Positions 7,964-9,124 of a stretch of DNA of 38,769 bases are shown piece by piece. The stretch lies in IMG/VR virus record IMGVR_UViG_3300036819_000332, positions 1 through 38,769 of that record; one strand, written 5' to 3'. Source of the DNA: a virus. Positions within the stretch are counted from its first letter, which is position 1, and each line of letters opens with the position of its first letter. The notes under the pieces were generated by a model that was given only the letters and a program-made list of their open reading frames with translations, did no database searches and was not told where the DNA came from. Made by a program: the position numbers and the translations under genes.

Positions 7964-9124
7964 GTGAGCGGAAAAGTTCAAGGCCTGGCGTGGGAGTCGA
8001 CAATCAGCGATCGCGTCCAGGTCTCTGTGTTGGTTTATCTCGGCAACTGCTCGGACGACTTCGGGGGCAACTGCTTCCCGGGGATCGCGCTGATTGCCAA
8101 GCGAACGCGGTACTCGGCGCGGGCCGTGATTCGTGCGATCGGCGAGCTCGAGAGTGAGGGCTGGATCTCGGTGAAGCGCGGAGACGGCAAGGGAAACTTC
8201 TCGCAATATCAGATCGATGTCGAAAAGTTGAAAGAGTGCCAGGATGTCACCCTTTCAAAACCGCGCAAACCCCGAGCAAAGCCGAAAGAGTGCCAAGGTG
8301 GCACCCTTTTCGATGCAGCTCAAAGGGTGAACTCTGGACACCAAAGGGTGAAATCTACGACAGCAAAGGGTGAAATTCACGACAATCCCCCACACCCCCT
8401 ATTAGGTGTAAACGTCACTGAAACGTCACTAGAAACTACAACCCCCCTTACCCCCCATCGCAAGCGACGGGGGGAATTGTCTGCGGAGATCCCCGATGCT
8501 GTCCAGACGAAAGCCCGCGCCACGGATGTGGCGCCGCACTCCCTTCCGGGCCGCAAGAGCGAACGCCCGCTGGCTTTTCACCGAGACGCTGCAAGTGTGG
8601 CGCGAGATCCTGCCGCGGAGGGACGAGCGGATCCAGCTGCAGGCCCGGCTCGTGCGGCTGAGGGCGGAGCTGGCGCTGGCGGCCTGAGTTCAGGGTTCGA
8701 GCCCGATGAGTTCACGCCTGGCCAACGTGAGCACCTGGCGCGCTGCAAGCCGGCCGACCTGCCGCGTTGGGAGCGCCACTACCGCGAAGAGAACGCCTCG
8801 ATCAGCGCGGCCGGTCGCAGGGCGATCGCCGACGTCGAAAAAGCGCGGCGGTTATTCCCGACCCGCCAGGCCGCGATCGAGCGCGTGATGCAGGCCTGCG
8901 GCTTTGTTGCCGGTACCAGGCGCAACCCGTTGCCCGCGATCCTGGGCCAGGTGTTCGAACGCTGTGCCCAGCTCGGCGCCGAACCGTGGACGACCGGGCC
9001 GATGCTGATCGCGGCCTGGGAAGCGCAGCGGGGGGACGGCGGAAAGTTTCACTGGGGTGCGCTGAAATTCTTCCGCGATGGCCACTGGCGCGACTACGTG
9101 CCGACGGGAAAGGCGGTCGCCTGA
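7964..9124 (+). CDS. putative phage replication initiator (lambda-O-like layout)
   Basis: 386 aa from a GTG at 7964. Residues about 1-90 form a winged-helix domain (ALIAKRTRYSARAVIRAIGE, then the wing GWISVKRGDGKGNFSQY), typical of phage replication O/DnaD-like N-termini. Residues about 95-240 are a low-complexity linker. The C-terminal domain (about 245-386) is helical and could bind a helicase loader or helicase. The linker DNA contains a dense repeat array (8231-8474), as lambda gene O contains its origin. No separate helicase or helicase loader is visible nearby. The initiator role is an inference from domain layout plus repeats. Confidence 0.65.
   Translation: MSGKVQGLAWESTISDRVQVSVLVYLGNCSDDFGGNCFPGIALIAKRTRYSARAVIRAIGELESEGWISVKRGDGKGNFSQYQIDVEKLKECQDVTLSKPRKPRAKPKECQGGTLFDAAQRVNSGHQRVKSTTAKGEIHDNPPHPLLGVNVTETSLETTTPLTPHRKRRGELSAEIPDAVQTKARATDVAPHSLPGRKSERPLAFHRDAASVARDPAAEGRADPAAGPARAAEGGAGAGGLSSGFEPDEFTPGQREHLARCKPADLPRWERHYREENASISAAGRRAIADVEKARRLFPTRQAAIERVMQACGFVAGTRRNPLPAILGQVFERCAQLGAEPWTTGPMLIAAWEAQRGDGGKFHWGALKFFRDGHWRDYVPTGKAVA
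8231..8372 (+). repeat. iteron-like array: seven AAAGRGTG half-sites (candidate origin)
   Basis: AAAGAGTG or AAAGGGTG occurs on the + strand at 8231, 8285, 8322, 8343 and 8365, and on the - strand at 8248-8255 and 8302-8309. The first four half-sites form two 25-bp dyads (8231-8255 and 8285-8309), 22/25 identical and 54 bp apart. The second has arms AAAGAGTGCCA / TGGCACCCTTT with one mismatch. The last three are direct repeats spaced 21 and 22 bp, about two helical turns. Copy five of the + set is in a different reading frame from the two before it, so peptide repetition alone does not explain the array. Confidence 0.7.
8410..8430 (+). repeat. 11-bp tandem repeat next to the iterons
   Basis: AAACGTCACT occurs at 8410-8419 and 8421-8430, separated by one base, in an AT-richer stretch (about 8398-8440) that could be the melting region of an origin. 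Confidence 0.55.
8451..8474 (+). repeat. GC-rich palindrome at the end of the candidate origin
   Basis: CCCCCC (8451-8456) and TCGC (8458-8461) pair with GCGA (8464-8467) and GGGGGG (8469-8474) around an AA centre, with one A/C mismatch. No T-run follows, so it is not a standard terminator. Its position beside iterons recalls the inverted repeat of lambdoid origins. Confidence 0.55.

Follow-up and report, generated by a model that had tools for sequence, protein, structure and literature searches.

A probable replication origin in the linker-coding part of an O-like initiator gene of a BPP-1/epsilon15-like phage

Replication origins have rarely been mapped outside lambda-like model phages. 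Phage O-like initiator genes commonly have a helicase, loader or P gene beside them, although such a companion is not strictly defining. Plasmid iterons are usually found outside the coding sequence of rep. The O protein of lambda binds repeated inverted-repeat iterons within its own gene, next to an AT-rich tract (PMC7466680). On plasmids, initiators bind to the iterons as monomers (PMC5043065). In the RK2 oriV/TrfA system, the repeats of the DUE are bound on one single strand by the winged-helix initiator (PMC4081077).

The window analyzed here is the whole stretch of 38,769 nucleotides, and its portal protein identifies the phage as a BPP-1/epsilon15-like podovirus. The early region encodes a large ParB-like protein with ParB_N and HTH_ParB domains at 738-2831. 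No helicase, loader or P gene was recognized anywhere in the 38.8-kb window, a contig that may be incomplete. The gene of interest and the domains of its product are as follows.

7964-9124, plus strand: array-bearing gene of an O-like replication initiator, 386 aa (phrog_391, 4.4e-16; phrog_270, 9e-12; HTH_36, 1.6e-9)
7964-8257, plus strand: winged-helix DNA-binding domain, residues 1-98, with a two-stranded wing (AlphaFold2 pLDDT mostly 87-98 per 10-residue block)
8717-9094, plus strand: C-terminal helical domain, residues 252-377 (AlphaFold2)

The phage most likely has its replication origin at 8231-8474, in the part of its initiator gene that encodes the linker; on sequence evidence, we put the probability of this reading at about 0.85. 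Its working mode would be best read as similar to that of ori-lambda, with a different family of DNA-binding domain, a different word and a different layout. An N-terminal winged helix with O-like profile matches characterizes phage O-like initiators, and the PHROGs search and the AlphaFold2 model find both in this protein, which also matches phrog_678 and phrog_1032. With 55 relatives as input, AlphaFold2 predicts a confident winged helix at residues 1-98, disorder from about 100 to 250, and a helical domain at 252-377. The C-terminal domain is related to the C-termini of the relatives L306, L309 and L272. The first dyad of the array starts at residue 90, in the last residues of the winged-helix domain; what remains of the array lies in the disordered stretch. 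The first-pass annotation had placed the array in the linker of a winged-helix initiator, and the O-like profiles and the predicted disorder agree with that placement. A codon-usage score in the gene's own frame is above zero in the winged-helix and C-terminal regions and drops below zero over 8264-8473, which is where constraint at the DNA level would be expected.

Further along the gene, at 8496-8688, the +1 frame holds an ATG-to-stop reading frame of 63 codons whose codon usage is strongly of coding type, and the initiator frame looks non-coding there. The stretch resembled a frameshift, and no homolog was found among the relatives; a nested gene, an old frameshift pair and an assembly error are the candidates.

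The DNA features in and behind the array are as follows.

8231+, 8248-, 8285+, 8302-, 8322+, 8343+ and 8365+: AAAGRGTG copies of the array
12680, 20227 and 37983: scattered AAAGRGTG copies
8231-8255: dyad 1, AAAGAGTGCCAGGATGTCACCCTTT
8285-8309: dyad 2, AAAGAGTGCCAAGGTGGCACCCTTT
8322-8329, plus strand: direct half-site 1, AAAGGGTG, with a decayed right arm (CACC) 9 bp further on
8343-8350, plus strand: direct half-site 2, AAAGGGTGA, 21 bp on from half-site 1
8365-8372, plus strand: direct half-site 3, AAAGGGTGA, 22 bp on from half-site 2 and in another codon phase
8385-8409, plus strand: CCCCCACACCCCCTATTAGGTGTAA block, at the same place in L272 and L306 in an alignment by eye
8400-8439: AT-richest stretch behind the array, candidate unwinding element, 62% AT against a gene mean of 37%
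8410-8419, plus strand: box 1 of a tandem pair, AAACGTCACT, one mismatch from AACCRTCA
8421-8430, plus strand: box 2 of the pair, AAACGTCACT, 11 bp on from box 1
8451-8474: C6/G6 hairpin (palindrome), CCCCCCATCGCAAGCGACGGGGGG

AAAGRGTG occurs ten times in the window, with seven copies packed into 142 bp (8231-8372) and three in the remaining 38.6 kb. In dinucleotide-shuffled versions of the whole window the count averages 1.27 and never exceeds 6. The two dyads, which start at 8231 and 8285, are perfect 25-bp elements of the form AAAGAGTG-N9-CACCCTTT set 54 bp apart, and a search of the whole window with up to four mismatches has the 8322 copy as its sole further match. The first-pass annotation had described these elements from the letters alone. 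Its count of seven half-sites in 142 bp is correct to the base, and the dyads, the direct copies at 21-22 bp, the tandem AAACGTCACT pair in AT-richer DNA and the C6/G6 palindrome are all found where it put them. A GC-skew switch, which it had proposed to look for as an origin marker, is absent at the array.

Selection appears to act on the DNA rather than on the peptide, as had been claimed. In 20,000 synonymous resyntheses of the linker there were at most four sites, and in 20,000 synonymous permutations at most five, against the seven observed. The plus-strand copies occupy codon phases 0, 0, 1, 1 and 2, and two further sites lie on the other strand, so that no single peptide motif can explain the copies in the window. 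The earlier argument from one direct copy in another frame and two half-sites on the other strand was therefore understated, since all three phases are used.

The closest parallel is ori-lambda, as found in lambda and the Stx phages. There, the origin lies within the initiator gene and the sites follow the DNA-binding domain; the sites are inverted repeats, and the AT-rich tract is on the C-terminal side (for lambda, PMC7466680), the side on which the window also has its AT-rich stretch. The pitch of the lambda sites is about 20-24 bp in the lambda record, and that of the ladder in the window is 21-22 bp. The same repeated-word test that was applied to the window class gives the same signature in lambda O and picks out the proven origin there, which upholds the likeness that had been drawn to this gene. 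In contrast, the word here is AAAGRGTG, and 25-bp dyads with direct half-sites take the place of the four to six 19-bp iterons of lambda. The architecture thus differs from that of lambda, as the first-pass annotation held, but it is not private to this phage, since the layout recurs in 55 initiator clusters. The DNA-binding domain is HTH_36 here and Phage_rep_O (PF04492) in lambda O. Profiles of the winged helices of the class do not find lambda O (E about 0.8), and the remote link between the two runs only through common matches to phrog_678 and phrog_345. One-strand GAACCRTCA boxes are absent in lambda. Judged by its sequence, the initiator of the window does not appear to be lambda O proper, as it has neither a Phage_rep_O domain nor iterons with the lambda word.

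Plasmid systems resemble the locus in other respects. RK2 oriV/TrfA likewise has a winged-helix initiator and iterons beside an AT-rich element; the words of such iteron plasmids differ. The initiators of the Paracoccus plasmids pAES7, pMARC3 and pMOS2 share the HTH_36 domain and have iteron-like repeats, but there are two repeats only, and they are described with a predicted oriV and not as an array in the rep linker (PMC3832669).

A cultured example with the same word is Bordetella phage vB_BbrS_PHB09 (L444). Its gene for 'DNA replication protein O' contains five plus-strand copies and one minus-strand copy of AAAGRGTG, and at 1698-1902 direct copies at 21-22 bp are followed by tandem AACCRTCA boxes. 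Unlike the window, PHB09 is without the 17-bp dyad, has four boxes in tandem, of which three are exact and one has a mismatch, where the window has two, and carries another C-terminal domain. The examined stretch of its record has no annotated origin.

The class to which the window belongs was found by a protein-blind search of viral contigs with the pattern AAAGGGTGA N10-14 AAAGGGTGA, that is, two words 19-23 bp apart. Among 99 viral contigs with the pattern, 78 have the array directly behind a winged helix with O-like profile matches. Of 118 bacterial contigs with the pattern, 10 show the same arrangement, in records labeled Aquabacterium, Pannonibacter, Acidobacteriaceae, Chloroflexia, Dehalococcoidia, Ktedonobacterales, Verrucomicrobiia and others; most bacterial matches fall outside such genes. 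Among 754 sampled genomes, only the two seed genomes have the word pair, and its backward control occurs once, which indicates that it is rare by chance. A pattern built on the dyad only gave one match per contig among the matches listed, about the chance level, and was left unused. Six cyanobacterial or Bacteroidetes contigs (L319, L321, L351, L359, L375 and L342, the last with six matches) have the AAAGGGTGA pattern without a winged-helix match; these are possibly unrelated tandem repeats.

Clustering at 60% identity of the viral and bacterial contigs together with the window gave 55 initiator clusters, a sample biased to the exact word used in the search. The winged-helix domains of these clusters are 12-58% identical to that of the window. 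Their representatives match phrog_270 'replication initiation protein' (55/55), the O-like phrog_391 (53/55) and HTH_36 (48/55). The defining feature of the class is a linker, behind an HTH_36/O-like winged helix, that carries two or more AAAGRGTG at a spacing of 21-23 bp. The class includes the window and, with PHB09 as its cultured member, looks widespread. Genes for a DnaB helicase (5), a DnaC-like loader (6) or a P-like loader (3) stand beside the initiator gene in some relatives.

The geometry of the arrays is tightly held. The 101 plus-plus intervals measure 21 bp (48), 22 bp (36) or 23 bp (17), and none measures 19 or 20 bp, though the search pattern permitted both. The plus-minus spacings, which the search did not force, are 17 bp in 12 of 20 cases, 18 bp in 6 and 19 bp in 2. 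Both the dyad of 25 bp and the ladder with its two-turn spacing are therefore characteristic of the class. At least two codon phases are used by the plus-strand sites of 42 of the 55 arrays, which again argues for selection on DNA. Phase 0 is rare (9 of 215 plus-strand sites), as expected from the stop codon at the end of AAA GGG TGA; the phase-0 copies of the window have AAA GAG TGC. Site columns that the search did not force hardly vary within clusters, in contrast to neighboring array columns, with changes of 0.000 versus 0.462 in L271, 0.000 versus 0.578 in L280, and 0.025 versus 0.203 in L298. The comparison of relatives that the first-pass annotation had proposed thus came out mostly in its favor: the sites are kept as the linker peptide, the codon phase and the flanks change, but the conservation fails in two small clusters, L285/L278 (L278 is truncated) and L241/L290.

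The DNA behind the array has features of its own. In 51 of 54 arrays, the 60 bp that follow exceed the gene in AT content (mean +0.106, p = 3e-10), and an AT excess is barely present in the 60 bp before the array. Within 110 bp behind the array, the coding strand has 41 exact copies of AACCRTCA and the other strand none, against an expectation of 0.34 from shuffles, and at least two such boxes with at most one mismatch are found in 24 of 52 clusters (expected 0.46); the motif was read off the same sequences before counting, so the enrichment is descriptive only, but this does not explain the strand bias, the position or the pitch. Of 46 intervals between boxes, 31 measure 10-12 bp, and the codon phases are mixed. 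The tandem AAACGTCACT of the window appears to be a weak pair of this second element, the GAACCRTCA boxes: there are two, each with one mismatch, at offsets +36 and +47. L306 has boxes at these same two offsets, and L272 at +36, +46 and +56. Pseudomonas phage MD8 and Gordonia phage DatBoi, whose iteron words are different, also have boxes or near variants behind them. In the closest relatives, L272, L306 and L268, a CCCC..CCCCYTATWNGGTGTAA-like block can again be seen by eye between array and boxes. A C-run/G-run hairpin follows the array in 6 of 51 clusters, including closer relatives of the window (L272, L285 and L332), and none has the reverse order; L303 and L309 also have elements like that of the window. 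The single-strand energy of the C6/G6 hairpin by itself is unexceptional (z = -1.1).

Binding sites of an initiator often also regulate its gene, and the array could in principle be an operator through which the same winged-helix protein throttles its own transcription for copy control, with the true origin elsewhere. The best PDB fold matches of the winged helix, though weak, are MarR-type winged helices, a type found in repressors, and the missing skew switch also fits this view. Operators are normally located at promoters, however, and this array lies 270 bp inside the gene. The consistent AT excess and the one-strand boxes fit strand opening, and the O-like annotation and the helicase or loader genes near some relatives point to replication, so we consider a purely regulatory role unlikely. 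A parS-like partition site for the ParB-like protein of 738-2831 is more improbable still. The window does contain that gene, and the form of the dyads is reminiscent of centromere sites, but across the 55 clusters the array tracks O-like winged-helix genes, ParB-like genes are beside only about three, and the constant feature is the position inside the initiator linker. Least probable of all is that the repeats are a by-product of a linker peptide of KGD/QRV type selected as protein: linkers do contain short peptide repeats, and the linker repeat of enteric relatives is mostly in one frame, but the mixed phases of most arrays, the use of both strands in the window, the synonymous nulls and the predicted disorder of the linker leave it hardly any room.

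If the array is an origin, the winged-helix domain would occupy the dyads of 25 bp in dimeric form and would bind the direct half-sites at intervals of two helical turns. This nucleoprotein complex could strain and open the adjacent AT-richer DNA. The tandem one-strand boxes, of GAACCRTCA type and represented in the window by AAACGTCACT, may then be held single-stranded by the initiator, and the C-terminal helical domain, the presumed recruiter, would bring in a helicase or loader. The binding of DUE repeats on one strand by winged-helix plasmid initiators is a precedent for this role of the boxes (PMC4081077). We tentatively suggest that the GAACCRTCA boxes are an origin-opening code of phages, in which strand-specific single-strand sites for O-like winged-helix initiators are common to origins with differing iteron words. 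Together with the 25-bp dyad and the 21-23 bp ladder, they could make up a widespread class of three-part origins concealed within initiator genes. A search of open-access papers found no account of the AAAGGGTG or GAACCRTCA elements. If the array is an origin, word and layout would predict an origin from sequence and allow origin calling in uncultured viruses, and the arrays would form a large natural series for studying site recognition by a winged helix. It also offers a test of whether phage initiators hold one strand of opened DNA, like plasmid Rep proteins.

Arrays with other words are found when the search starts from the protein. From the window alone, protein searches reached only L002, the nearest such relative, with 43% identity in the winged helix and CACCGGTGC repeats as its other word; the excess of CACCGGTGC is not significant in the repeated-word test, as 6 of 60 nulls reach the observed value. 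A search of bacterial genomes with the two-sequence alignment A2 gave no match. The tight protein set A3 was derived from the DNA search, and re-finding L428-L431 by protein is thus circular; these members were left uncounted. The only new members from A3 are L433 and L434, both with other words and both with significant arrays. A small winged-helix family (L264, L217, L228, L240, L256, L267, L283 and L284) has AAAGGGTG copies 12 and 11 bp apart directly behind the domain, in place of the 21-23 bp spacing of the class. In L434, the gene at 839-1546 and the DNA downstream show two dyads followed by direct half-sites at a 22-bp pitch, with the word AAACCACATGACA, and by eye a DnaB-like helicase gene comes next.
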